IMG/VR virus record: IMGVR_UViG_3300035034_000006
Coordinates: 1-23,400 of that record
DNA length: 23,400 nt
Origin: a virus
Strand: one strand, 5' to 3'
The translations under genes and the position numbers were made by a program. Shown piece after piece: positions 1 through 17,202 of the stretch (positions are counted from its first letter, which is position 1; each line of letters starts with the position of its first letter). Under the pieces are notes generated by a model that was not told the DNA's origin, did not search any database, and was given only the letters and a program-made list of their open reading frames with translations.

Positions 1-3000
1 AATGCGCAATGTGTTAGTAGTAGCGAAGCTACCAGTGTTTCCGTTTACAACATTTATTAGATATACGCGGCCTTGGTTATTGTCGTGCTTTTGATAGAAC
101 ACAACTTCGCCAGTAGCGCCAGTGCTATTGTCGAAAACAGTAACAGGACCAACAGTATAATCTGGGAGCCCGTTGCTATCAGTAAACAATGATCCGTCCG
201 GTTCAAAGAAGTCACCTATATCCAGCGGGTCGTTAGCATCAACGTCAATTGTTTGTGTAGACGTGAGTGTAAAGTCAATGTATCCGTCCCAAACAGTTTC
301 AATTGTATGAGTTGTTGGTGCTGACTGCGTTGCTCCGTTTAAGTAGTCGTATGTAAAACCGTAGTCAGTAACATCGTCACTGTTTGAAGTACTATTGACC
401 CATAGCTTAAAGTTGCCTTTATCAATGATATCCTGTTGGATTGTGTCATCAGCAACAATCGGCTTCGGTAGTCGAATAGCCCATAGGTTCTCCCACTGGA
501 TAGCAGCATCAACATTGTTGATAGCTCTCAAGTGCGGAAGTTCCGGGTTAGCCTCTGGTATTCCTTGGACATCACCTAAGTACGAAAAGTTAATAATAAA
601 ACTTTGGTCGTTAGCAGTGCCGTAAGCAGCTACCGTATCAAGCACGTTGTTAAAGTCGCTGAGTTCAAATGTAGTTGAGTCAACTAATTGATTAGCTAAC
701 TCTTGATATACTAATCCAGCGCCGGCGACGCCAAACGCAGTAGGTTGTGTTCCTGCCGGCGCGTTTTCGTACGTAATCCCGCCCCAGGTACTAATTTGCC
801 AATAACCACCTAATTTTGAATTAGGTTCGTATGCTGGCTGAGTGTATGTTCCTACTACTTTACCGTTATTAAGCAAGGTGCCTTCTTGTGTAAACTCTCC
901 CTGAACATCTTTGATATAAAGAACAACTTCAAAGTTCTGTGAGAACCTTTCAGCAACAACACCTTGGCCTGATGATGTAGTAACTGTGTTGCCTATAATA
1001 GGCAAGTTATCACCGCTCTGTATGTAGAGTACGTGGTCAATCTTTTTAAGTATCTCGTGGCCTCTTGTTAGAGACTCGCCGTCTACTATGCCTACTATAT
1101 CTGTAGGTGTATCGTATACATCACCGAACGGCTCATACGCAGTTAGTGGGTCTACTACTGGCACGCCGTTTACGTACCTTGTAAGGTTAGTGTACTTGTT
1201 CCAATGTAGATAGATTGTGTCGCCCGTTACGCTTCCCTCGTACTGATTAATAGGCGCGCGGATTAATACGTGGTCAACCGCAGTATTATGAACATACGGT
1301 GAGCCTTGTAGTATTAGCTTAGGCGGCGTTGTATCTGCTTCGTCAATTAAGAATGCGTAGCTAGTAAACGTGTTAAACGTAGTGTTGGCCTGTACCGGAG
1401 TTATTGTCCTGTCAGCCTTCCAGTTCTGCGCTGCAAACTTAACAATGTCGTCAGTTAAATAAGTCTCAGTTGGGTCAAATTGCCCTTTAATTGGAGAAGC
1501 AATATTTGAGGCTGCTGGTGAACCGACCGCTAACCAATTTCCGTCTGGACTAATTGCCACCGACTTACCAAACTCTTGTCCAGTGTCAATGCTGCTTTCA
1601 ACTGCTTGAGCTGGGCGAAGTTCACTTTCAAATAATAGCTTATTTGCTTCACTTGCGCGAGTATAAACGTATGCTATACCGTCTCTGTTTGCCGGGTCGC
1701 CGATTACTACTTTGTTGTTATCGGACGTGATGGCAATTGCCTTACCAAACTCAAAGTCCGGTTGTTCTTTGTCACTATTATTAATTGAGAACAGTTCCGA
1801 ATAAACTTCTTTATTCTCTAATACAGTCCAGTTGTTGTATCCTACCCCGTCAATCCATAACCTTTGGTCTTTTACCAGCGACTGTTGAACAATTGTGTTA
1901 GCTTCGTTAATGTCTCCGACCCTAACACTGCGCAATGTACTAACGTAAGCGTTAATGTTTACTTGGTCCTCAACAGTTAGCCCGTTTGGTACTATAACTG
2001 TTACTGTGTCGATGCCGATACTATCTACACGGTAGAAGCTATCGTTAGTAGTATCAGTTCCCTGAATGCCAATGTACTGTCCAGGCGTTAACGTAGTTGC
2101 TCCTGTTTCGAAAGTAACAATCGCAGCCGGGGTACTAGTGTCAGCTCTTACGTCCACTACATTGTCTGTGCCTTCAATAGAGGTAACTCGAAGATCAGTA
2201 CGAATATGCTGTAGTACGTCCCAATCTTCGTTAAGTCCCACTACCCATATATAGTCACCGTAGTTTACGCTCGAAATGTTCCCGTCTAACACGTTCTCAG
2301 CATTTAGTACTCTAAATGATACATCATCATCTCGTACATAACCAGGTGTACGCAACTCATCCTTAGACTCAGTTGCTATAGAGAACGGCTTATTGTTGTA
2401 TCCGTCCGGAGCAGCATAGATTTCAAACGGACGCAAGCGATAAACAAGGTCTGTAGCATTTTCTGGCAAGCCGCTAACTAATTCAACTGGCTGCGGTGAT
2501 AATCTAAATTCAGCCTCGTCAAGTAAGAACTCAATTACTTCTACGTTGTCAGTATCACCGTATCGTCCCAAGCGTATTGCCCACTCTTCATAAAACTCCA
2601 AGCTATCTTTATCTGCTGACCCCAATGCATCAAATAACTTAGATAACGCATTCACGGTCCCTTTATCCTGGATCATTCCTTGATAAAACTTGTACTGCGA
2701 TACGTCGTCATTAATAATGTTCTGTAAGTACTGACGCTTTTGATAACCGATCAAGTGCTGAGCATGTTTTTGTTGCTCAACATCAAAGTTATCAGTGTCT
2801 AGATCATAAAAGTCAGTAAACTGGTTGATTCTGTAATCAAAGTTAGGAATTAGTTTAGCTTGTGGTCTGCCGGGCAATCTTTCCCAATCTACTGCTACAA
2901 ATACGTTGTTGCTTGCTACTCCTCGAAGAGCAACATAAAAGAACTCTTTATACTTAACAAGGTCACCTACAGAATAATCAGTCCATTGTTTCCAGTCTCG

Positions 3001-6000
3001 AACTTCTGCGCTGTCGTATATAAATCCCGGAATATTAAGACTGCCATTCCAGTTATCGCTGCGGTATCCTGTAACCTTTACTCGTTCTTGTCTGTAACCC
3101 GCTTCTGGATCATAAAGGATGTCGCCAAATACTGACGTGTTGTCTAACAATATTATGTGCTCTTTCTGTACAAGTGGCATCCTGATATGAAATATACCGT
3201 CGGCTGTATTAATTGATCGAAGGCCGAATTCGTTTTGGTTACTGCGTGCAATGCTGCTAAATCTGCGTGCCAGCTTTTTACCGTTGGCTGTTAGCAAAGA
3301 ATAATCATAAAAGTTATCAAACACGTCATCTACAACAGTGTACTCGCGACTGAACTTAATTTGCTCAGCACCCGGACTCAGGGTAATAACACTACCTGCT
3401 GCCCAGTTCTGCGTTGTCCAGAACAAAAATTCCTTAACACTGAAAGACCAGTTCTCAACCTGACTTATTTCTTTGTTGAAGAAGTCAAACTTAAATCCTT
3501 GGTCTAGTAAGTGTGCTTCGTAGCCCAGCATAAAGTCGACTACATCTTGTATAGCAGGAAGTACCGTACCGTATGACAGCTCCGAAACTGTTTTTCTAAA
3601 CTTCCTGCGCAGTACAGCATCGCGCCCGCCAACTTGTGGCAACGACGATATTTGCTTAAACTTAGTCAAATCAAACGAGTCAGTACTAACGTGAGACTCG
3701 ATAACTCTATAGAACAAGTTATCATATCGTACGTTTTGACCCTTAATGTATTGTTTGCCACTACTCCAGTTAAGAAACTGTTCGCTCACACCGCCAATGT
3801 TGATAACAGGGTCAGTAGATGCTGCTAATACAGGACGATATCTAAACACAGGGTCATTTCTGTCATAACCTTTAATGACATACCCTTGTGGTGTTCGTTC
3901 AACAATAACACCGCTATAAGATACAACATCAACTGGCGAACTAGTGTTTAAGAACACTTGGTAGTTCTCAAGCGGCAAGAATGCGTTTCCTTGATTTAGC
4001 GGGGTACGGCTGTCAAGTATCAGACCAAACTTCTCTTTCTCTGTAAAACCGCCTACCTTAATTCGTAACTGAACTCCTACATTTGTCAACTGTGCCTTGT
4101 AACTGTTGTAACTGGTCTGAATGTCTGACACAAGGTATTCGAAGATATAGTTAATCAAGCCGCTTGTACTAACACGAGTAGTGTCTTCTGTGGCGTTTGG
4201 AAACGCAATGTCTTGTAGTCTAATTGCTTTATTTGACTCTGTATAAATTAGTTGGCCAGTCTGACTTAGGAATACTCTTGACAGGTCAAACCCTGTAGCA
4301 AAAGTAGCACACGGCTGGTTAAGCACTCTGGCTGTTAGCAAGCTGAACGGAAATTCACTGCCTCTGCGCCACGCTGCTTCAGCAGGTGAGTAGTCACCAA
4401 ACTTGTAGCTTGCTGATGCCAAGCGACCTACAAGATTGCGAGCATAGCTGCTTTCAAGTGGGCTTAACAAGTTGCCGCTGCTGTCTACCGGAATGTGTGA
4501 TAGCAAAGTAGGCCTTGCGTATTGCGGCATTTGCTTCTCTGCTTTGCCTGGCTCTCTGATTACGCCAGCAGCGAGATCTTGCCACAGTACAAGGTTGTCT
4601 CTTGTGTACGGAGCAGGACCGTAGACCGCTTTCCACCACGTCGGTTCAATAGTAAGGCCCAGCATTTCCCAAGGTGTAGTGTGAGGACTATCTGTGTCAT
4701 ACGCTTGCTTGTACACTGAGCGCCAGGTTCCGTTTAGCGGTACTCCGCTCGGCGATACAGTATTCGTATAGTTAAAAGTAAACGCATCGTCTCTTTGGTA
4801 CAAGCTATTAGACGTGTAATCAGGATCTCCTGCAATAGTAGTCCATTCTACAAAGTCAGCAACCATTACGCGGTTTATTGCCTGTGTAGAATATCCAGTA
4901 TCACGGAAGTCACCTGGTACAAAGCTGTTCATATCAAACAGTCTAGTATCGTACGATTGCTTTATGTTGTTATAAACTCGCTTCTCAAACTCAAGAATAA
5001 TGTCATCGCGGTAATCACCAAACGCAATTACAATACTTCCGTCGTGGCCTTGTATTACGGTTTGTGGTTCTCTGTACGTAGTGTCAACAAATAGCTTTGG
5101 TATAAATGCCGGATACAGTCCTAGCTTAGTAGGAGTGGCCGGTATGTAAGAACCGTCAGTTGTGTCACCTTCAAAGATCTCAATTATGTCACCCTTAACA
5201 ATGTCAGTGCGAATATCAACAAATCCTTCACTGTTAAATGCATAGTCTACGTCGTGTATTAGTTGCTGTGAGTTTAGGTACACTAATACAGATGTTGCAC
5301 TAAGTTTGTCGAGAGTAAACCCAGTTGTTAGTGCGTAAAAGTTGCTGTTGCTGGCCGGAACAACATATTCTAATCTACGAGTAGCTGCCGCACACAACAT
5401 ATCTGTGAAGTAGAAAGGCATACTAGACGTTTTGTTTTCGTTGAGCCTTGCCATTATTAGGTCAACTTGCTGCTTAGGTGTACCGTCAAAGCCCAGGCTT
5501 TCTGCTGTCTGTAGAAACACACGCTTAAATTTGGCGTACTCCGATCTGCTATAACGTAGTGCCTTTACAATGTTCGCATCTTTGTCTGTGATGTGGTATA
5601 GCGGCAACGCTAGAGGGCTGCTGTGCTGTACAAAACGCTTGCCGTACTTGTCAATGTCGCCTAGGTCTCGCAGGTTAGTTGCGCCCGGGAACGTACCAGC
5701 AAATCCATTTGCGTTTTCAGCGATAGATCCCACGTGGTCGTTTACTTCGCCCAGTGTAAAGCTAGTAATTTTGTTGTTAAGCGGGTTTCGCTCTATATTG
5801 TGCGCAATTTCATAATAACCATTGTCGTTCTTGGCAGTGTTGCTTTTTGCCTTTATAATTACGTTTGTATCTACAGACTGTTCCTGTGTAAACACAACTG
5901 CTGCCGTTTTCTTTGTGCGGTCAATCACAAAGTCAGTACCTTGGATGCTTAGTTGCTGATCTACAAATACCTTGACAGTTAGATCTTTTACGCTGCTGCT

Positions 6001-8112
6001 ACTATCAAACACGTCAATGTCAAATCTGTTTGTAGCAGTGTCAACCACGTACTGTCTGATCACTGCCTGGCTGCTGACTGTTGCAGCTTTTGCCCAGCCG
6101 TTCTGTGAAACGTAGTCATTAAGACTAGTGTACTTTCTCAGATAACCTATATCGGTATTCTTTTGAAGAATCGTTTCGTTTTCTTGATATGTAAATGCGC
6201 TGTTAACTAGTGAAAAGTTAAACTGTACATCACCAATATTTTGTATTGTTCTGTAGCTTAATGGAAATCCTAGTTCAGCATCTGCTGTGCCAGTGCCTAG
6301 CTTGTATTCAAATACTGTGTTACCTGTGAATGTAGATTGCTGATAGAATGTTTGGTCAGCGTAACTGTTGCCGGCACTGTCGTATATTTCAAATAGCGGC
6401 TTCTGGTTGTTTCCTAGTTTTTCTTGAGTCGCTTTCCAATTCGAACCGTCAAACCAGAACAGTTTGCCTCGGTACTTTTGACCGTTGGTTACAAGTACTA
6501 CTTGATTCTCGTAAGGAGTAGTGTCGGAGTCTTCAACTAAAGATATCTGTCTATTGTTCCCAATCTTAATGAATCGCACTCTGTAGATCTTGCCACTAAC
6601 TAATCGATCAGTGTCAGCAGCAAACAGCACTCTCATGCCTTCTGCTAACTGAGTCCCATCTACGTTATATCCTATGCTACCTTCAATTGTAGAAAATACG
6701 TCAACTGTATAGGTATCAATTAGATCAATGTCAGCTTTAGCTTCTGTGCCGTAACCAAGAAGTTTTAGGCCGGCGTCAAATTCAATAATAGGACGAACAG
6801 CACGGGCTGATTGGTCAAGTACTTCTGCAACGTCATTATACAATGCGGCTGCTTTGATTGTGTCAGAGTGGAACCATCTGTTATATCGCGACCACGCATT
6901 ACCATCTGGGCTGGCGCGGTTTACTACAATGTAATCCTTGGTTCCAGCATAACTGCTTGAGTTGTCAAACGGCAGCCTGTCCCAGGCACCCGAGCCCCAA
7001 GGTACTGCTACTTCGTCAGCATACGATGCCGGTATTCTTAGGTCGTCTTCGTTAACTAAACGGATGCCAGACCCCACACCCTCGACGTACCAATCACCCT
7101 TGCTATACTTTTCAGGAGTAACGTTTCCAATAAACGTTACTTTAAGACCATTCGTAAACTCGACGCCGTTGCCGCCTTTGTAAGTTATCTTTCCAATTAC
7201 TTCTTGTTCTATGTCAATAGACGAGCTTGATTCGATGTTAAACACTCGAATGAATCCACCTGTGTTAATATTTCGCTCGCTTAGATAAAACAGGTCATTA
7301 GGTGCTTGTGCCGGTACAGTGAACTCTATAACACCTTTGTCAATGTATTGCGCTGATATTTCGTCACCTGCTTCATTAAAGAATCGTTGACCTGTAGAGT
7401 ATTCGCTGGAAATGTTCTCTCCAGTGTTACCGGGCAGCGGTGTAGTATAGCTGCTATTGACTGTAAACGCAAACGGAAACCCTGGAGTGTCGATTTCAAA
7501 CCTGTATGTCTGACCTCTGTATAATGTTAACACAGGGTTGCCAGCAAGTCTATTAGAAAACTTGTACACAAAGTTGTCGTCTTGATCTTCAACAGTTACT
7601 CTGTATGTGCTCACTACGTCAACTGATTGTCCAGCAACAGATACAACTTGTGGACCTGTCGGTAACCAAAAGTATTCGCGGAAGTTGGTTAGTTTGTCCC
7701 AGTCTATATTTGGGTTCCAAGCATAGTATTCTTGAGCGTTTAACAAGCTCTGGTTAGATACATCACCGTTAAATGCGCTGATCTGGTTTACAAAGTCTGA
7801 GTAATCTTTAAAAAAGTCAACATTGTCAAGGTCGTCTTTTACGACAACTGCTGGCTCTAGCTGGCTATTTTGTCTTTGCTCGCTAACATCTTCAATATAT
7901 GTGTCGTTGGCACGGTATGCTTTAGCAGTCTTGCGACCATAAAAACCTGATATCTTCTCAGCAACCCCTGGCTGAACCATTTGGTCTAATGTGCTTCCTA
8001 AAATCTTTTCGTTTGCCTGTGTTCTAAAGTACCTAGGTAGTAAGTCAGAACTTTTTCTTTCAGGATTGTTTCCAGCTGGAAGCGGGTATTCGTTTTGGTC
8101 AGTGTTAGACAT
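1..8112 (-). CDS. Giant virion structural protein in the gene 7 (baseplate wedge) slot, partial at left edge
   Basis: The minus-strand frame is open from an ATG at 8112 to base 1, so at least 2704 residues are present and the C-terminus is missing. It probably belongs to the baseplate or its periphery, because it directly follows gp6, where T4 has gene 7 (1032 residues). The start overlaps the gp6 stop as TAATG, which suggests coupled translation. The N-terminus begins MSNTDQNEYPLPAGNN. Residues about 170-294 look like a beta-sandwich of the cupredoxin-like type (LTLYRGQTYRFEI ... GVIEFTVPAQAPNDLFY). A GHDGSI segment lies near residue 1023. Residues about 2120-2200 hold two FG-GAP-like beta-propeller repeats (FEFGKAIAITSD; EFGKSVAISPDGNWLAVGSP) 60 residues apart. 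The general look (aromatic, beta-rich, few Cys) fits the very large structural proteins known from marine T4-like phages. Homology to T4 gp7 is inferred from position, not seen. Confidence 0.85.
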   Translation of the reverse strand, partial: MSNTDQNEYPLPAGNNPERKSSDLLPRYFRTQANEKILGSTLDQMVQPGVAEKISGFYGRKTAKAYRANDTYIEDVSEQRQNSQLEPAVVVKDDLDNVDFFKDYSDFVNQISAFNGDVSNQSLLNAQEYYAWNPNIDWDKLTNFREYFWLPTGPQVVSVAGQSVDVVSTYRVTVEDQDDNFVYKFSNRLAGNPVLTLYRGQTYRFEIDTPGFPFAFTVNSSYTTPLPGNTGENISSEYSTGQRFFNEAGDEISAQYIDKGVIEFTVPAQAPNDLFYLSERNINTGGFIRVFNIESSSSIDIEQEVIGKITYKGGNGVEFTNGLKVTFIGNVTPEKYSKGDWYVEGVGSGIRLVNEDDLRIPASYADEVAVPWGSGAWDRLPFDNSSSYAGTKDYIVVNRASPDGNAWSRYNRWFHSDTIKAAALYNDVAEVLDQSARAVRPIIEFDAGLKLLGYGTEAKADIDLIDTYTVDVFSTIEGSIGYNVDGTQLAEGMRVLFAADTDRLVSGKIYRVRFIKIGNNRQISLVEDSDTTPYENQVVLVTNGQKYRGKLFWFDGSNWKATQEKLGNNQKPLFEIYDSAGNSYADQTFYQQSTFTGNTVFEYKLGTGTADAELGFPLSYRTIQNIGDVQFNFSLVNSAFTYQENETILQKNTDIGYLRKYTSLNDYVSQNGWAKAATVSSQAVIRQYVVDTATNRFDIDVFDSSSSVKDLTVKVFVDQQLSIQGTDFVIDRTKKTAAVVFTQEQSVDTNVIIKAKSNTAKNDNGYYEIAHNIERNPLNNKITSFTLGEVNDHVGSIAENANGFAGTFPGATNLRDLGDIDKYGKRFVQHSSPLALPLYHITDKDANIVKALRYSRSEYAKFKRVFLQTAESLGFDGTPKQQVDLIMARLNENKTSSMPFYFTDMLCAAATRRLEYVVPASNSNFYALTTGFTLDKLSATSVLVYLNSQQLIHDVDYAFNSEGFVDIRTDIVKGDIIEIFEGDTTDGSYIPATPTKLGLYPAFIPKLFVDTTYREPQTVIQGHDGSIVIAFGDYRDDIILEFEKRVYNNIKQSYDTRLFDMNSFVPGDFRDTGYSTQAINRVMVADFVEWTTIAGDPDYTSNSLYQRDDAFTFNYTNTVSPSGVPLNGTWRSVYKQAYDTDSPHTTPWEMLGLTIEPTWWKAVYGPAPYTRDNLVLWQDLAAGVIREPGKAEKQMPQYARPTLLSHIPVDSSGNLLSPLESSYARNLVGRLASASYKFGDYSPAEAAWRRGSEFPFSLLTARVLNQPCATFATGFDLSRVFLSQTGQLIYTESNKAIRLQDIAFPNATEDTTRVSTSGLINYIFEYLVSDIQTSYNSYKAQLTNVGVQLRIKVGGFTEKEKFGLILDSRTPLNQGNAFLPLENYQVFLNTSSPVDVVSYSGVIVERTPQGYVIKGYDRNDPVFRYRPVLAASTDPVINIGGVSEQFLNWSSGKQYIKGQNVRYDNLFYRVIESHVSTDSFDLTKFKQISSLPQVGGRDAVLRRKFRKTVSELSYGTVLPAIQDVVDFMLGYEAHLLDQGFKFDFFNKEISQVENWSFSVKEFLFWTTQNWAAGSVITLSPGAEQIKFSREYTVVDDVFDNFYDYSLLTANGKKLARRFSSIARSNQNEFGLRSINTADGIFHIRMPLVQKEHIILLDNTSVFGDILYDPEAGYRQERVKVTGYRSDNWNGSLNIPGFIYDSAEVRDWKQWTDYSVGDLVKYKEFFYVALRGVASNNVFVAVDWERLPGRPQAKLIPNFDYRINQFTDFYDLDTDNFDVEQQKHAQHLIGYQKRQYLQNIINDDVSQYKFYQGMIQDKGTVNALSKLFDALGSADKDSLEFYEEWAIRLGRYGDTDNVEVIEFLLDEAEFRLSPQPVELVSGLPENATDLVYRLRPFEIYAAPDGYNNKPFSIATESKDELRTPGYVRDDDVSFRVLNAENVLDGNISSVNYGDYIWVVGLNEDWDVLQHIRTDLRVTSIEGTDNVVDVRADTSTPAAIVTFETGATTLTPGQYIGIQGTDTTNDSFYRVDSIGIDTVTVIVPNGLTVEDQVNINAYVSTLRSVRVGDINEANTIVQQSLVKDQRLWIDGVGYNNWTVLENKEVYSELFSINNSDKEQPDFEFGKAIAITSDNNKVVIGDPANRDGIAYVYTRASEANKLLFESELRPAQAVESSIDTGQEFGKSVAISPDGNWLAVGSPAASNIASPIKGQFDPTETYLTDDIVKFAAQNWKADRTITPVQANTTFNTFTSYAFLIDEADTTPPKLILQGSPYVHNTAVDHVLIRAPINQYEGSVTGDTIYLHWNKYTNLTRYVNGVPVVDPLTAYEPFGDVYDTPTDIVGIVDGESLTRGHEILKKIDHVLYIQSGDNLPIIGNTVTTSSGQGVVAERFSQNFEVVLYIKDVQGEFTQEGTLLNNGKVVGTYTQPAYEPNSKLGGYWQISTWGGITYENAPAGTQPTAFGVAGAGLVYQELANQLVDSTTFELSDFNNVLDTVAAYGTANDQSFIINFSYLGDVQGIPEANPELPHLRAINNVDAAIQWENLWAIRLPKPIVADDTIQQDIIDKGNFKLWVNSTSNSDDVTDYGFTYDYLNGATQSAPTTHTIETVWDGYIDFTLTSTQTIDVDANDPLDIGDFFEPDGSLFTDSNGLPDYTVGPVTVFDNSTGATGEVVFYQKHDNNQGRVYLINVVNGNTGSFATTNTLRI

Positions 8113-11100
8113 TAGTAGCTAAGTCCCCCGGAACTGTTTAATGTGCCTACTGTAGAAGAACTTCTTAGTCCGCTATCATTAGACTTGTCTGATGTTGTGA
8201 CTATTTTGCCGTTCGCATTTAGTCGTGTAGCTGTAATTTCGTCTATAAGTTCAACGTCGTTAACCGATGCGCCACTTATAAAAATCTCGTCTGGTTCTGA
8301 GCGTATTTCAAATAAGCTACCAAACGCCTGATCTAATTGATTCGGAACAATGATAAACGTAACCAAGTCCGGCGCCATTCTGTTCATAACAAATGCAGCC
8401 AGTTCCTGGAAGAAGAATGTATCTCCAAAGTCCCAGTTTTCTAACGCAAAGTACTGATTTACCAAGCTAATAACTCTAGCCCTAATGTCGTTATCGTTTA
8501 ACACTAAATCAGGGTTCTTTACAGCCTTAAATGTTGCTTGCAAATCTTCGGGCGCCTTTGATCCAAATAGTACTTTATATTTAACTGGATGATAAATCAC
8601 CTCATCGCTAATTGACTTGATCTTGTTAATAGTAGAACCAAACGATCTAAATAATTCGTCACTACTAGATGGTTTAGGTCTATATCCTAATTGACCGTCT
8701 AAAAACAGTCTATATTCTCTGTCATACCCTCTAGTCAGAAGATATGTGTCCATTACGTTACTAGCACTTGGATCTATTCTGCTATCTGAATCAGCAGTAT
8801 GAACATAATGAAACTTTAACTTGTCACGCCCTATGCGAGCAGCATAATCTGAAATAACATCAAGCACTAATGTCCTAGCGTCTAGCTGTTTAAAGATATC
8901 TTTATCATAAAAGTAAAATACCTGCTTGTCGTCGTATGTACTTAGTGGTTGTAAAAACTCAGAAGTTTCGCTTCTTAGTAGTTTAATGCCACGAAGTTCT
9001 GCGTCAACGTATCTATAGTCTTCTGTACCTGCTTCAGTAACATACTTCTCTTGTACAATAAGTTTTTCTAGGATTGTAGTTTTCCCAGTAAGAGGATCAA
9101 TATATTCTGGCTCAACAATGTCCTTGAACAAGTCAGGGTCGTCAACTACTCCGTCACTATCGCTATCAAAGAACGTAAGCTCAACTCTAGAGTTATCGAC
9201 ATATCCTTCTTTGTCTCTAAATTCTGATAATACTTCCCAATCAAAGTCATTAGTAAACGGAAAAGTACTGTCCGGTTGCGTGTTAATATTCATTACAGAG
9301 ATTTTATCTTTAACAATCTTGCCCGAACGACTATCGTAAATCTTGTTGGCTGCGTTGTAGTAGAATCGTATTTCGTCGTCACTCTCAAATACGTAGCGCA
9401 GTCCTCTATATGTAACTTTGTATCTCTCGCCACTTGTTTCAAACTTTATGAGCCAACTTGCGTCGAGTCCTTGGCCGGATATATCAGCAGCAAATCCTGT
9501 GCTAAAGCTGCCTCTTGCGTCAAGATTTGATGCTTTAATTAACTTCCATTGTTGAAGATCTACGTCATAACGCAATCCATAATTGTTAAATGCAAATGTT
9601 TGATCAATGATTTGGCGCTTAACATCGTCAATTAACGAACCAGCTAATTTTGGTCTAATCTCAGTTAATATCGCACCGGCTGGAATATTGTCACTTAGTG
9701 AAACTGCGCCAGAATTCTCAGACAGTGTCTGTGCTGCTCCGTCACCTGCAACACCGAATACCTTGGTCCAGATTGCTGTGCGGTCACCTTGCTTTGTCGG
9801 CTCGCCTATTCTTATTACGTTGTCTTTGTCAAAGTATCGTCCTTGCGGAGCTACAAATTTAAGTAAGCTATCTGACTTAACAAATCGCATACTTGTTGCT
9901 GTAAAGTTACCAAGCCGCAGATAGTTAACTTCTGCTGTAGCCAACGAATCACTAAAGAAGCCAGTGTATGTATTTGTGTCAGCAGACGTAGCAACCCAGT
10001 ATACATTTAACTCAACAGCGTTAATAGTAGGAAACTTATCATAGTAAAAATGATTTACTTTCTTGTTTTTAAATATTGGCTCAATCTCGTTGATTACTAC
10101 CCCTTCAATGTCTGTTTGGGTGTTAAACGTAAACGAAGTTGACTTATCAACAAATTCCTTGTACACAATTCCGTCGTTACCGTACAGGTTCGTATTACTG
10201 TACTTTCCTGTTGCATCTATTAGGTCAAAGTATCTTGATATGCCGCTCGAAATACGGTTAACACTTTTGACTTTTACTATCTCTTGGCTCACAGCTAACG
10301 GCGCAACGTTATAGTCTTCGCCTGTGATCATTCTATTCTGTGTGTAATAAGTAGCAGGTGCGTTGGTCTTTATGCTTGCGCTAGATTCGGTAGGAGCACC
10401 GTTAGAAATAGTCGTTTGCAAGTCAACAGTAAACGTGATTTCTTCTTGTCTGCCGGTCTTACTCAGATACGGAATAGTGAAGTTAATCCCAGACATAGCA
10501 CCTGGAGTAATTATCATACTTCTGTTTTCACTTATTCTATAATATGATCTAAAGTTACCTTTTGGAAGATCACCAAATACGCCATCAGAAAAGATTAAGT
10601 TAATCCTGTCATCAACTCTAGTCAACACACTATACACGTTTCGAACATTACGGTTGATACTGTTGTAGATAACGTTGTTGCCTTCTACACTGTCAACTTT
10701 AGTCCATAATTCTTGCTCGTTGCCGTCGGAGTCTAACTTATACAACCATACATCAGAGTCGTTAATATTAACTGTGTCAATAGAAACAGTTTGGTTTGCA
10801 GTCGGCTGCGTTATAGTAAACTGGCCGTTATCAAGTATACCTTGACGAAAATGTGCAAAGAAACCAGTAGTCGAACTACCAGGTCCTCGTCCGTCATCGC
10901 GGTAAATGTAGGCAAAGTTATTACCAGCAAGAGGAGGCTCTTCGATTACGTTACCGTCGTTGATATCTGTTGACACTATCTGGAACGGTGTAGATTTGCC
11001 TTCAACTGTCTTCTGAAAGCTATAAACCGGTACTGTTGTGTTTAGACCGTTTATTCTATATTGTTCTGTTGGGATTCCTGCAACTGTATCGCGCTTGGCA

Positions 11101-11672: not shown

Positions 11673-12125
11673 TTACGCAACTAATCCGTTGTCTTGATCA
11701 AACTGCAATTGCATTTGTTCAGCAATACTATAGTCTAGGAAAGTGACCACGCACTCAATTTGAATACCGTTAAAATAACTGTCAACTATTACTCGGTCAA
11801 CAGAAACTCGTGGGTCGCTGTTGATTATTGATTCAACGTTCTCAACAATTGCTTGTTTAAGGCTTTCGGTTAGTGGCTCATAAAGAACGTCCCAAATAAT
11901 TGTACCAAACTCGGGGTTTTCTAACTTCTCACCCTGGCGAATATGAAAGTGATTTATGATATCTTGTTTAATTATTGCAACGTCATAGAGGCGAAACCCG
12001 TCGTTCTCAGGATTTACTGTGCTAATTCCTCGATAGACAGTATTTGCTGCCGGTTGTCTATTGGCTTGCGACTGTGTATTCTTGGATTGTACTCGTTTGT
12101 ACAGGTTCTTCTCTAATGAGCTCAT
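11673..12125 (-). CDS. 25: Baseplate wedge protein gp25
   Basis: This 150-residue protein belongs to the gp25-like wedge family shared by contractile phages and type VI secretion systems. In the T4 baseplate it sits with gp6 and gp53 in the wedge core and helps start sheath assembly. The body shows the family pattern: KQDIINHFHIRQGEKLENPEFG, then TIIWDVLYEPLTES, then a conserved end with VDRVIVDSYFNGIQIECVV. The length is close to T4 gp25 (132 residues) with about 30 extra polar residues at the N-terminus. It lies between gp5 (20 bases upstream) and gp6 (54 bases downstream). No Shine-Dalgarno sequence stands at the usual distance. Instead GATAAATA, a late-promoter-like box, lies 5-12 bases before the ATG. 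Confidence 0.93.
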   Translation of the reverse strand: MSSLEKNLYKRVQSKNTQSQANRQPAANTVYRGISTVNPENDGFRLYDVAIIKQDIINHFHIRQGEKLENPEFGTIIWDVLYEPLTESLKQAIVENVESIINSDPRVSVDRVIVDSYFNGIQIECVVTFLDYSIAEQMQLQFDQDNGLVA

Positions 12126-12146: not shown

Positions 12147-14480
12147 TTACGCAAGTGATTGACTAAACCAGGCAGATTCGTCGGCGCGCCTTGATACCAA
12201 ACCTGACAATTGCTGGCCGCCGGCTTTGTTGTACAACGTCATCTTTTTTGCTATTGTAGCGTTGTCTCGAGTACCGCCAGCAGTTACTTGATCCAACGAG
12301 CCGGTGCCTAGGTTAAACGCAAACGATGTCATAGCGTTAACTTGGCCTTCGTCCCAGTTGTAACCTTTATTTTCACCATAACTTATTACAAACTGCCTAC
12401 GACGAGCAACATCTTGCTCTAGGCGCTGGCGAGCAACTTCTTTAGTAATAACTTCATCACTGCTAAGTGCCCGGGTTCCGTAGCCGTTTGTCCATTGTCT
12501 CTCGTCCCAAAACGCCCTCGGTGCAAATCCTTCTTGCAAGATAATAAAATCAATTAGATTTTCAGGAGGAACTGATTGCGTTTGGTTGCTGGGAATTCCT
12601 AACTCGTCAGTAAATTGGGTTGTAGACACTGGCGTCGAAATGCTGCTATATTGTGGGGTGCTTGGTTGGGCAGACAACGACTGTGCAGAGTTCTTTCTAA
12701 AGGTATCTGGCGTAGACACGTAACTAGCATCTTCAACGTTCACAGGTGCGTCAGCTTCAACAATCGTAATGTCAGTCTTGGCCGAGGTAAAATCGGACGG
12801 CATAAGATTTTCGTGTTGCAGCCAAGGTTCGTGGCTTGGCATCCTCTTAACAATAGATTCAACTGTTATTTTTGCCATAGTAGACGGCACAATTTGGCTA
12901 TTAGTATGTACTAACAACGGGGTAAATTCACGTGCTTCTATTGCGTCTTGTGCTGATCCTGCTGGTCCTGCAGGACCTGCTGCACCGCCGTTTAGAGCTA
13001 CACTGGCGCCGTCTATAGCTACAACACCGCTGCCTAGTACGTTGACAGCGGCACTGCCATTGAGGTTAAGATTGGATCCTGATAACACGTTTAACGCTGC
13101 ACTGCTTTCTAGATTTAAAGCAGCGCCTGACTTTGCGTTTAACACTGCGCCAGATTCTATGTTTAGATCAGCTGATGTTTTGTGGCTAATAGTAGTAGCT
13201 AAATTAAAGATGCCCTGGACAGCTTTGACGTCAGAGTCGTTGCCTACCGTGAGTTTATGGTCGTTGCCTATCTTAGTGTCTTGGTCGTTTTTTACGTCAA
13301 CTTTCATATCGTGTTCAGCAAGGATATTAGTGTCATTCTTGCTTTCCATCTGAATGTTGCCGCCACTTTCTCTACCGCGGGCTCGCACGTTTACGTTTCT
13401 ACCGCCTTCAATGTTGACGTCCCTATCGGCAGTAAAATTTAAGTCTTGATCAGAATGTACACTTATGCTATCATGAGCATATATGTCTATCTTGCCGTTG
13501 CTGCTCATTTCGATCCAAGTTGTGCCTCGGGCATTGCCTATGTAGATAAGGTCCTCGGAGTTGTGCATAAGGATCTGGTGGCCGGTGCGAGTTCTAAAAC
13601 GCATCACTTCGTTGTGAGGAATAGTACGATCGCCTTCAAGATCACCTGCTTCTACATAAGCGTATTCCGGTGGACCTTTACTAGCTGGCGTTTTTCTTAT
13701 TAGCTTGTCGTCGCCGTCGTCCATAACAAAGCTAGAACCGCCTAGTCTGTTTACAAATACGTTGGCTTTTGTGTCGTGTTCTCCGTATAGGCCCGTAGGC
13801 GCCCCTTTGCGTTTGTCAATAGGTCCGGGGGTACTAATACCAAATACTGCGCTCGGGACTTCTCGACGAGCACTGCTAGTTGTCGTCCCTCTATGTTCAT
13901 CGCTTTCTAGACCTTGGTCTAGTAACGACTTAGTAAAGTCGTCATTATAAGGTTTGTTATACAATGTAGGGTCTTTATTGACTCCTGCTTGTACTTTCTT
14001 GTTATATTCGCCAGTTGGTAATTTCTTACCTTTTAGCTTCGACGGAGTAGCATCTGTAGTTAGCTCAGTACTGGCGCGCCCGTCTGGAACCATAAAGTTC
14101 ATGTATTGGTCTTGTACACAACCTATCCAGAAACCTCTCGAGATGTCGCCTTCGGCAAAGATGACAAGGACCTTTGTACCCGAGTCAGGCGGGACAAACC
14201 ACATACCATAAGACTTTTGAGTACTGGCATAACCGTCGTTTGCTGTAGAGTGTGCTGCGTTAGTAACACCGTAGAACGGACTAAGATACTTGACTTCAAT
14301 TGTGGTTCCTAACCTTTCAGGCAATGAACCAGCTTTGTTTTTTCGTAGCAAGTCGACCTTAAGAGTTCCCATGTAGTTGGGGTCAAGGTGGCTGACTACT
14401 ATTGCTTCAAACGGGCCGCTGCCGGTAAAGCCTAGTTCTCTTAACGATTGCGCTGCACCTGATCTTGTGTCTTTAGCCAT
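12147..14480 (-). CDS. 5: Baseplate central hub and needle protein gp5 with C-terminal lysozyme domain
   Basis: This 777-residue protein forms the membrane-piercing needle and should act on peptidoglycan as the tail tube enters the cell. Residues about 20-135 are the OB-fold domain typical of gp5/VgrG. Residues about 310-500 are beta-helical, ending in eight clear octads at 436-499 (SADLNIES, GAVLNAKS, GAALNLES and so on), as in the T4 gp5 needle. A short collagen-like GPAGPAGSA run follows at about 501-509, then a linker of about 130 residues. Residues about 640-777 are a GH24 (T4-type) lysozyme domain: E650 in ILQEG, D659 in FWDERQ and T664 in WTNGYG match the Glu-Asp-Thr triad, with one residue fewer between Asp and Thr than in T4. 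The later ITKEVARQRLEQDVA, QVNAMTSFAFNLGTGSL and GLVSRRADESAWF segments also fit. T4 gp5 carries its lysozyme before the helix, so domain order differs. AGAAGG precedes the ATG. Confidence 0.93.
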   Translation of the reverse strand: MAKDTRSGAAQSLRELGFTGSGPFEAIVVSHLDPNYMGTLKVDLLRKNKAGSLPERLGTTIEVKYLSPFYGVTNAAHSTANDGYASTQKSYGMWFVPPDSGTKVLVIFAEGDISRGFWIGCVQDQYMNFMVPDGRASTELTTDATPSKLKGKKLPTGEYNKKVQAGVNKDPTLYNKPYNDDFTKSLLDQGLESDEHRGTTTSSARREVPSAVFGISTPGPIDKRKGAPTGLYGEHDTKANVFVNRLGGSSFVMDDGDDKLIRKTPASKGPPEYAYVEAGDLEGDRTIPHNEVMRFRTRTGHQILMHNSEDLIYIGNARGTTWIEMSSNGKIDIYAHDSISVHSDQDLNFTADRDVNIEGGRNVNVRARGRESGGNIQMESKNDTNILAEHDMKVDVKNDQDTKIGNDHKLTVGNDSDVKAVQGIFNLATTISHKTSADLNIESGAVLNAKSGAALNLESSAALNVLSGSNLNLNGSAAVNVLGSGVVAIDGASVALNGGAAGPAGPAGSAQDAIEAREFTPLLVHTNSQIVPSTMAKITVESIVKRMPSHEPWLQHENLMPSDFTSAKTDITIVEADAPVNVEDASYVSTPDTFRKNSAQSLSAQPSTPQYSSISTPVSTTQFTDELGIPSNQTQSVPPENLIDFIILQEGFAPRAFWDERQWTNGYGTRALSSDEVITKEVARQRLEQDVARRRQFVISYGENKGYNWDEGQVNAMTSFAFNLGTGSLDQVTAGGTRDNATIAKKMTLYNKAGGQQLSGLVSRRADESAWFSQSLA
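12984..13175 (-). repeat. Eight tandem octapeptide repeats coding for the gp5 beta-helix needle
   Basis: Translation of this stretch of gp5 (residues 436-499) divides exactly into eight 8-residue units with a small or polar residue at position 1, hydrophobic residues at positions 4 and 6, and often Asn at 5: SADLNIES, GAVLNAKS, GAALNLES, SAALNVLS, GSNLNLNG, SAAVNVLG, SGVVAIDG, ASVALNGG. Octads of this kind build the three-stranded beta-helix of the T4 needle. Less regular repeats continue back to about residue 330. Confidence 0.85.
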
Positions 14481-14556: not shown

Positions 14557-17202
14557 CTATGCTAAGTCCTGACCTTCTCGTGGATCTCGCCCTGGCGTAT
14601 TGCCTATTATTTCGGGTTGCGTTTCTGCATTACCGGATCGTGACGTCGGTTGCTTCTCTACAACTGTCCTATTTTTACTCACGCCTTCAACAGACTGGTT
14701 CTTTCTGCGGATTAATGTTAATGCCTGAGTAAACTGATTTCCACTTATTGATGTCTCAACTGTAGTTACCTTATAAAACCCACTGAACCCCTTGACTAAG
14801 GTTGTGTCAGATTGAAATTCCATTACCCCTTGCTTGTTGTAGTCAACAGGCGTTCTAAAGTTTACCAATATGTCAACCTCGTTGCGCTGGTAATCGAGAG
14901 TACCGTCTTCAGTTAAGGTAAGTTTCTGACCACTGTTTCTTGCGCTGTAGTTGCCAAGACCACTATCGGGTATGTAATACGGATCACCCCAAATGTCAAC
15001 ATTAGCAGTAATTAAGTCAACATTACTGTTGAGCAACAGATGATGAAACTGTTTGGCCAAGTTCTTTTTGGCACTAGTTTCTGCAGAGCCGCCGGTATGC
15101 CACGAAGTAGCGTCACTATCTTTAGTCTGACTAGTAGGAGACAAATTGTCGCCCGGAGTAGTATCACGTCCTAACTCTGGTTCTGGGTCAGGACTAACTG
15201 TGGAGGTAGATGCTGGGTTAATGCTGCCGGCGCCCTGGTTATACCGATCTGCTCGTAGTGCTTCGAAGAACGCAGTATTAAACTCAATATCGAATTTTAG
15301 TACGTCTTTATTTGCTCCAGTGTAGATATAGTTGTATTCTTTTGATACTTGCCTAGCAAGCGGAGCTTCGCCCGTAAGACCTTTATTCGGGGGAACCATT
15401 ACGCTAGAATGTACTCTATAAGGAACAACGTTGTATACATAAACCTTGGGCTTGCTTCCAGTAATCGCTTCTACATTGGGTATGTCCAACACAAAACATT
15501 CTACTTCAATCTTAAACCAGGTTATCATTCCTTCGTTATCTGGATTTTCGAGTGCAGATTGGGTGTAGTTACTGATCAATACCATTTCTTCAATTATCTT
15601 TTGTATTGACATTCCTTGAGGGAACTTAAAGAGTCTCTCGTCCGGACTTATTTCTATACCATTTCTTGCATATATCTTCTTAACTCGGTCATAAGCAAAA
15701 TTACTTAACGGAAACGGTCTATCAGTACCTTCGTTGGAACTCAAAACCATTCTGCTTTGGCCAATTCGATTGATATCAGTAGTCGAACTGCCTGTTAGTG
15801 TTTGATAAATGTTGTTGTTTGCCGACGAACTTTTCTCACCAAAGAAGTTGTCAACCCTAGTAAGATATTGTTCAGTAGAAATAACATTACTATTATTAGG
15901 AGCCTCTATACTAACTGTAGCACCTTGTTCAGTGTCTGACGATCTAGTGTTTGTTGCTGATCTTGCTAAAGTTTTGGGGAACCGTATCACGTACAAGTTA
16001 GTTGCAGGCATGCCCTCTTTCTCTGCTATTTCTCTAAGTTTCTTATTCAATATTGCAGACAAGCTCTGCTCACCAAAGGACAATGCATCAGCAACAGTAG
16101 ATCCTCGAATACTAACTGGGTCGTTTATCCGTTGTGTGGTATCCGACAACGACTGTTCGTTCCACGGGAACCCCGACACTTCGTAAGTTGACCCGCCCGA
16201 CTCAACATCAAATTGCACATTATATAATTTGAACGGAATCTTTCTGCTAGCAAACTCAACAGGTTTCGAGTTTCCGTGTTCGTCCCAGCCAATAAAATCA
16301 ATCTCGAGCAAATACGGAGCGTCCAAATAGTTAAGGTAATTTGCTTTTTTTGCGGCAATTTCGAGACTTTGAAGGAAAAGGCCTAGACTATATGGTTCTT
16401 GGACCTTAAACGACAACTTGGTTGCAGTGCTCATTCCTGTTCTGTTGTTAGGACTTAGTATAGAACTCATATTAAAGTCGTCGATGAAATATTCTAAATT
16501 TCCATCTTCTTCAAAAGCAGTAGTTATTCGTTTATTGTCAATACCGCCGCCGCCGGTGCGGGCAATAGTAAAGTCTGCACCGTTTTTTCGATATGTGTTC
16601 TGCGGATCGTTAATGCTTGCTGTAGTTAATACACCTAACGATAAAATGCAGTTATAACTAACAAAGTCTTCAAGTTGATTTGGAATTGTAGAATTTGTCC
16701 CTGTAACTGACTGATATGCTGTAGGTGCGTTGGACGGCAGACTTGCTCCTGCTAATACTCGTTGCATAGATTCCTTACGAGTGAGCATACTACCGGCGCT
16801 GCCATAATATGGATTATTGGTAGCGTCATACGTTGCACTGTTGCTACCGACCAACGCACTTCCTGGGTTTTTGTCGAACTGTGCCGATAACTTCTTCTTT
16901 TGTTCTGTTGATAGCAATACTCCGCTGCCGGGCAACGGGGTTTCAAACTCCGACGGGTCGACTCCGGCTAATGTTTTGTAAATTTCTAAATCAGTACCTG
17001 TTTCCCCAGAAGCATTTACTCGTATACTTCCACTTCCCAGCGAGTCGCTGCTGGTCATATCGTTATATAACCCCAGTAGCCCGCCTTCTGTGTCTTGAGG
17101 AGTCAACCCTTGCGCCGTTGCTATTGCTCTACTTTTCTCTTCGCGGACTTGATTAGGAACGTTTGCCCGTTCTAACTGAATTCTACTCACATCGTTTGGC
17201 AT
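14557..17202 (-). CDS. Baseplate hub-type virion structural protein (881 residues)
   Basis: I do not recognise this protein by a decisive motif. It lies between gp53 and gp5, inside the baseplate operon, and is almost certainly a virion protein. In T4 the hub around gp5 is made with gp27. This protein is the only candidate here for that role, but gp27 is about 390 residues. The N-terminal 170 residues are Ser/Thr/Asn/Gly-rich and probably flexible. The ordered core includes YSLGLFLQSLEIAAKKANYL near 271-290 and APYLLEIDFIGWDEHG near 294-310. A beta-rich region around residues 545-605 and a hub-like end with VNFRTPVDYNKQGVMEFQ follow. The C-terminal 50 residues are polar. The ATG at 17202 directly follows the gp53 stop (TAA-ATG) and is preceded by AGGAGT, a good ribosome binding site. 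A 76-base gap with no evident signal except the gp5 ribosome site separates it from gp5. Hub role is inferred from context. Confidence 0.75.
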   Translation of the reverse strand: MPNDVSRIQLERANVPNQVREEKSRAIATAQGLTPQDTEGGLLGLYNDMTSSDSLGSGSIRVNASGETGTDLEIYKTLAGVDPSEFETPLPGSGVLLSTEQKKKLSAQFDKNPGSALVGSNSATYDATNNPYYGSAGSMLTRKESMQRVLAGASLPSNAPTAYQSVTGTNSTIPNQLEDFVSYNCILSLGVLTTASINDPQNTYRKNGADFTIARTGGGGIDNKRITTAFEEDGNLEYFIDDFNMSSILSPNNRTGMSTATKLSFKVQEPYSLGLFLQSLEIAAKKANYLNYLDAPYLLEIDFIGWDEHGNSKPVEFASRKIPFKLYNVQFDVESGGSTYEVSGFPWNEQSLSDTTQRINDPVSIRGSTVADALSFGEQSLSAILNKKLREIAEKEGMPATNLYVIRFPKTLARSATNTRSSDTEQGATVSIEAPNNSNVISTEQYLTRVDNFFGEKSSSANNNIYQTLTGSSTTDINRIGQSRMVLSSNEGTDRPFPLSNFAYDRVKKIYARNGIEISPDERLFKFPQGMSIQKIIEEMVLISNYTQSALENPDNEGMITWFKIEVECFVLDIPNVEAITGSKPKVYVYNVVPYRVHSSVMVPPNKGLTGEAPLARQVSKEYNYIYTGANKDVLKFDIEFNTAFFEALRADRYNQGAGSINPASTSTVSPDPEPELGRDTTPGDNLSPTSQTKDSDATSWHTGGSAETSAKKNLAKQFHHLLLNSNVDLITANVDIWGDPYYIPDSGLGNYSARNSGQKLTLTEDGTLDYQRNEVDILVNFRTPVDYNKQGVMEFQSDTTLVKGFSGFYKVTTVETSISGNQFTQALTLIRRKNQSVEGVSKNRTVVEKQPTSRSGNAETQPEIIGNTPGRDPREGQDLA

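Follow-up and report, generated by a model that had tools for sequence, protein, structure and literature searches.

A gp5-like phage spike with a GH24 lysozyme behind its needle, in a slot where wall enzymes are exchanged among relatives

What does it mean for a gp5-like phage spike to carry its lysozyme after the needle instead of before it? This question is raised by a gene in the window, which is the entire virus record of 23,400 bases. The gene (12147..14480, minus strand, as are all spike features below) is an intact ORF of 777 aa whose product matches PHROG 13211, ‘baseplate hub subunit and tail lysozyme’, with E=3e-50, and which by Pfam ends in a GH24 domain. A preliminary description had read the order OB fold, needle, lysozyme from the protein, and Pfam places the domains in this way. 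More fully, the product consists of an OB fold, a putative needle, a conserved tip segment, a disordered linker and then GH24. A full-length AlphaFold2 model, a monomer of moderate quality (pLDDT 68, pTM 0.41), has a beta domain at the N-terminal start and GH24 at the end, and a fold search with this model returned matches mainly to the GH24 part.

The OB-fold region covers approximately residues 20–125 (14106..14423), as judged from PF04717 at residues 89–122 (24.1 bits against a Pfam cut-off of 23.8) and from strands in the AlphaFold2 model; the T4 gp5-type OB family, PF06714, had no Pfam match in the window spike. It is followed by a conserved inter-domain region at about residues 126–297 (13590..14105), which has no Pfam match and, by the spacing in relatives, corresponds to the place of the T4 gp5 lysozyme without containing the enzyme. 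In 81 relatives the OB-to-needle spacing is 168–187 residues, thus no enzyme is present at the T4 position in these spikes, and Pfam found no GH24 in the window spike outside residues 637–777. The putative needle, resembling a triple beta-helix, lies at about residues 320–466 (13083..13523), where two needle profiles match below cut-off (DUF2345 at 321–368 with 23 bits, Gp5_trimer_C at 385–419 with 23.6 bits). In the full-length monomer model, residues 331–450 are predicted with pLDDT 74–91 and form no intrachain strands; a confident strandless stretch of this kind could arise if the strands are made between chains of an intertwined triple helix that was modelled as one chain.

Downstream of the needle, the sequence contains two GPA triplets at residues 502–508 (12957..12977), a site that reads GPASPASPA or GPAAPA in relatives. 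The triplets are where the preliminary description had placed a collagen-like run, but two of them do not make a run, and a collagen-like shaft was rejected. The next part, residues 510–596 (12693..12953), is a tip segment recognized by its conserved columns, with a small hairpin region at about residues 510–560 of the model (pLDDT 76–86) and the residues DTFRK (592–596) at its end. Only then follows the linker rich in Ser, Thr, Pro and Gln (residues 597–636, 12573..12692), which is variable among relatives and has pLDDT <50 at residues 597–634. Hence the long linker proposed earlier is real over 597–634, but the proposal had missed the conserved and partly folded segment of about residues 510–595; the idea of a flexible tether holds, with 597–634 disordered and GH24 folded separately in the AlphaFold2 models.

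The tip segment contains the motif R-x-P-x-H-E-P-W-x-x-H-E-N-x-x-P at residues 546–561 (12798-12845), again defined by conserved columns. An exact search for ‘EPW’ across 109 distinct spikes recovered this HEPW motif from 91 of them, with the enzyme present or absent. In Salicola phage SCTP-2, whose spike has no enzyme, a close variant ends the protein, and in Atu_ph07 one precedes the C-terminal part of the spike. We suggest that the motif segment belongs to the needle tip, where the motif is possibly the needle apex, or a site for a metal or a partner. Between the spike gene and the gp25 gene of the window there is no PAAR tip gene (gp5.4 type). The PAAR profile was found in contigs of 2 of 15 relatives and adjoins the spike in one. 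In locus L034 a PAAR gene recognized by profile (about 8781-8984) lies directly between spike and gp25, and by eye a PAAR-like gene occupies the same place in L012 (7311-7613) and likewise throughout L012–L014.

The C-terminal domain, residues 637–777 (12150..12572), was identified by PF00959, by its model and by Foldseek. The Phage_lysozyme profile matches residues 650–768 with 64.4 bits (cut-off 22.3, E=1.6e-17), the AlphaFold2 model of the domain has pLDDT 94.7, and Foldseek aligned it to solved muramidases and endolysins with E-values of 1e-6 and TM-scores to the query of 0.7–0.8. Among the fold matches, T4 lysozyme ranks behind proteins of P1, phage 21 and Acinetobacter phages. The preliminary description had assigned residues 640–777 (12563-12150 of the window) to GH24 and named a catalytic set of E650, D659 and T664, and both assignments were confirmed. 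In an alignment of 30 sequences the Glu codon (12531..12533) and the Asp codon (12504..12506) are invariant, and the Thr codon (12489..12491) encodes T or S. The distance between Asp and Thr is one residue shorter than in T4 lysozyme, as had been noticed, but this spacing is conserved in all 30 aligned relatives; it is therefore a mark of the GH24 subgroup, and we rejected it as a peculiarity of the window protein. By profile and predicted fold, the C-terminus of the window spike is a bona fide GH24 lysozyme, and it is predicted to be active.

The spike gene stands among phage baseplate genes. On the minus strand an 881-aa structural gene is followed by the spike, a gp25-like gene, a gp6-like gene and finally a very long open gene; a gp53-like gene and a 306-aa virion gene lie upstream. 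The plus strand of the window encodes a late sigma factor and a RusA-like resolvase. The gp25-like wedge gene (11673..12125, minus strand; phrog_261, phrog_43) comes directly after the spike gene, and the very long gene, an ORF of at least 2704 aa on the minus strand (1-8112) after the gp6-like gene, runs past the window edge. On the other side, the 881-aa virion structural gene (14557..17202, minus strand; phrog_11190) adjoins the spike gene. Its counterparts carry a second wall enzyme in some relatives, and Pfam recognized none in the window gene. The surroundings of the spike have the same gene order in RaK2, PBECO4 and PA5oct and, for the part upstream of the spike, in Atu_ph07; the window phage is probably a distant relative of the RaK2/PA5oct jumbo-phage branch within the T4-like viruses.

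Scanning viral contigs three times yielded at least 147 spikes that share the conserved N-terminal part, from which removal of near-copies and of unusable ends left a non-redundant set of 93. Behind the tip segment these 93 carry an M15 peptidase (15), GH24 (13), GH19 (10), a VgrG3-like muramidase (8), a second histidine-rich peptidase-like module (5), a lambda-endolysin-like module assigned by eye (3), an SLT-like module (3), M23 plus GH24 in the RaK2-like manner (3), Hydrolase_2 (2) or an M15-like module (1), and 30 are free of enzyme; the names of modules unmatched in Pfam are our own motif readings, and the sampling is biased as one scan targeted GH24. On the tree of the 93 spikes at least 17 module changes are needed, far below the number for shuffled labels and above the minimum of 10, and for GH24 alone 4 changes are forced by supported branches. 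The slot behind the needle is thus an evolutionary socket, in which modules have been swapped among relatives. No description of such exchangeable modules was found in the literature searched, a limited library; the domain order was known.

Loss of the module is also seen. The spikes of L004–L006 end inside the linker, with 69% identity in the best segment, and are a natural enzyme deletion nested among bearers of GH24. In L004, gp25 lies directly behind the shortened spike; the possibility that the lysozyme had been split off into the next gene was rejected, as three-frame translation showed none. The genes adjoining the enzyme-free spikes of the non-redundant set had no module match either.

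Several other ends were observed in the course of the survey. The spike of L069 has a VgrG3-like C-terminal muramidase by profile (PF21277, E=4.7e-24), and L071, L073, L078, L079, L089, L100 and L108 have an end of this type by similarity to L069. A trypsin/HtrA-like domain, not an enzyme one would expect at a tail tip, forms the spike end in two jumbo phages: Atu_ph07 of Agrobacterium (L049 4764-7391; PF13365, E=6e-17) and Phosso of Sinorhizobium (L218 2414-5545; weak HtrA profile matches). L124 has a split spike, in which 2873-4720 encodes a needle protein lacking motif and enzyme, and the next gene, 4699-6387, encodes an HEPW-like motif together with a Phage_lysozyme2 domain.

Genes for a second enzyme lie mostly just upstream of the spike (L057:2-3661, L059:1319-4960, L066:3193-4932, L088:2573-4981 and others). 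In 33 of the 34 non-redundant loci in which both modules were recognized, the spike and its adjoining gene carry modules of opposite kinds, peptidase versus glycosidase; since this pairing involves just two independent switches on the tree it is not significant, and we treat it as a lead rather than a result. A tentative extension, to which we would give somewhat less than even odds, is that a conserved needle with HEPW tip and an exchangeable wall enzyme would act with an opposite-kind enzyme from the adjoining gene so that both peptidoglycan bonds are attacked, with modules matching host wall chemistry and being exchanged with other phages and with type VI systems. If this is true, the central spike of a large uncultivated phage group would be a modular delivery device.

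We consider it the best explanation, with a probability of roughly 75%, that the window protein is a trimeric spike of a contractile tail which carries its lysozyme as C-terminal cargo behind the needle, in an exchangeable slot. The domain order, the GH24 identity, the disordered linker, the separate folding of GH24, the gp25, gp6 and gp53 neighbours, the swapping of modules, the natural deletion in L004–L006 and the presence of the homologous CBB spike in virions (PMC5259590) speak for it. Against it stand the needle assignment by sub-threshold profiles and a strandless monomer model, the unmatched PF06714, the neighbour gene in the window, which lacks a second enzyme unlike that of many relatives, and the failure of virion mass spectrometry to detect RaK2 gp078 (PMC3622015); natural enzyme-free spikes also imply that the C-terminal module is not always needed. 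According to this explanation, a disordered tether of about 40 residues would hold GH24 behind the needle. Sheath contraction would presumably drive needle and tip segment through the outer membrane, and three GH24 muramidases, if the spike is a trimer, would thereby enter the periplasm, located at the tip or close to it. There they would cut glycan strands, upon which the tail tube could pass. The changed piercing of the wall and changed handling of the tip protein put forward in the preliminary description may follow from such an arrangement.

The tether at the tip would be wrong if a cut in the linker, made while the phage assembles or infects, separates the lysozyme from the spike to act as a free or bound enzyme. 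There is a precedent, as maturation cleavage of T4 gp5 separates the lysozyme part from the beta-helix, and a long, disordered, Ser/Thr/Pro-rich linker is suited to such a cut; moreover, RaK2-like phages have a related stand-alone lysozyme gene adjoining the spike gene. However, the linker has no conserved cleavage motif, and spike and enzyme share one reading frame in every GH24-bearing spike found. We regard cleavage as unlikely. The chain might instead fold back along the needle and hold the lysozymes beside needle and baseplate much as in T4, in which case the order differs and the mechanism is the same. About 40 disordered residues together with the tip segment could, judging from the model, span part of the way back, but the same slot holds enzyme folds without a common surface, which speaks against conserved docking of the enzymes on the needle; we consider folding back rather improbable.

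A further alternative concerns the enzyme itself, as activity is lost or altered in some muramidase folds, and the C-terminal GH24 might be a non-catalytic module for binding the wall. The SpmX domain is among the fold matches, T664 is replaced by S in some relatives, and the Asp–Thr spacing is short; against this, E650 and D659 are invariant in 30 sequences, and unrelated hydrolases take the place of GH24 in relatives, which favours activity over binding. Hence we judge a purely binding role to be very improbable, and keep an active lysozyme carried as cargo behind the needle as the preferred reading. An enzyme behind the needle was previously a known curiosity of a few jumbo phages, and the survey suggests a socket for interchangeable wall enzymes across a broad, uncultivated and largely marine phage group. 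Such spikes would be a source of virion lysins with many chemistries, a module shared with type VI spikes would tie two delivery machines together mechanistically, and both the breaching of the wall and the reason for enzyme-free spikes become testable.

Among known systems, T4 gp5 shares with the window spike the OB fold, GH24, the putative needle, the hub position and the context of gp25, gp53 and gp6. However, its lysozyme lies between OB fold and needle (183–310 by Pfam), while that of the window lies after needle and tip segment, and its GH24 is of another lineage. The order ‘after instead of before’ had been presented as unusual, but it is published. In RaK2 gp078, described in 2013, a beta-helix is flanked by unmatched regions and a lysozyme is at the C-terminus (PMC3622015); the CBB spike, described in 2017, begins with a gp5 domain, has a possible M23 domain and ends in a lysozyme, and mass spectrometry detected this homologous spike in virions (PMC5259590). 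Since the order is also general within the window clade, a unique domain order was rejected, and the objection that the preliminary description had raised against itself, an order common to the whole marine group, applies in part. The order does not extend to every marine T4-like phage, as the spike of cyanophage S-SSM5 is enzyme-free and GH24 and M15 sit in a separate protein.

Profile scans found the order OB, needle, GH24 in RaK2, PBECO4, Vibrio 2.275.O, Munch, Kaldavass and XbC2, an SLT-like module behind the needle in XacN1 and a trypsin-like one in Atu_ph07; in phage EP75 a CHAP domain follows the OB fold. The RaK2-like spikes (RaK2 gp078, CBB_240, PBECO4, Munch, Kaldavass, XbC2 and Vibrio 2.275.O) resemble the window spike in OB fold, putative needle and C-terminal GH24 and share the neighbours gp53, structural gene, spike, gp25 and gp6. 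Most of them, however, insert ahead of GH24, behind the needle, an M23-like domain, for which the window spike has no Pfam match, and in RaK2, PBECO4 and Munch a related free lysozyme gene adjoins the spike gene. A 100/100 split in the GH24 tree (unrooted, with long branches) has T4 gp5, the C-terminal domains of RaK2 type and the free lysozymes adjoining them on one side, and the other side holds the window domain and the other GH24 spikes of its group, mixed with GH24 of other proteins. Positions on opposite sides of this split suggest that C-terminal placement was probably reached twice and independently, in the RaK2 type and in the window group. Among annotated GH24 domains of the phage collection, the nearest is that of Vibrio phage D530, with 41% identity and in the same subgroup, but the protein that holds this endolysin domain is no spike: it is an internal virion protein, in a phage of 45 kb.

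Evolved VgrG proteins such as VgrG3 also carry a C-terminal enzyme behind the needle, and the PF21277 module family is common to them and to relatives of the window protein (L069). The window spike differs from them in its score against the VgrG profile TIGR03361 (15.9 bits, cut-off 186.35) and in the phage baseplate genes around it, among which an immunity gene is not expected. Specialised VgrG proteins bring in C-terminal muramidases with the tip (PMC9927483), and by this analogy the window spike, though not a VgrG by profile, most likely works as the phage counterpart of an evolved VgrG.
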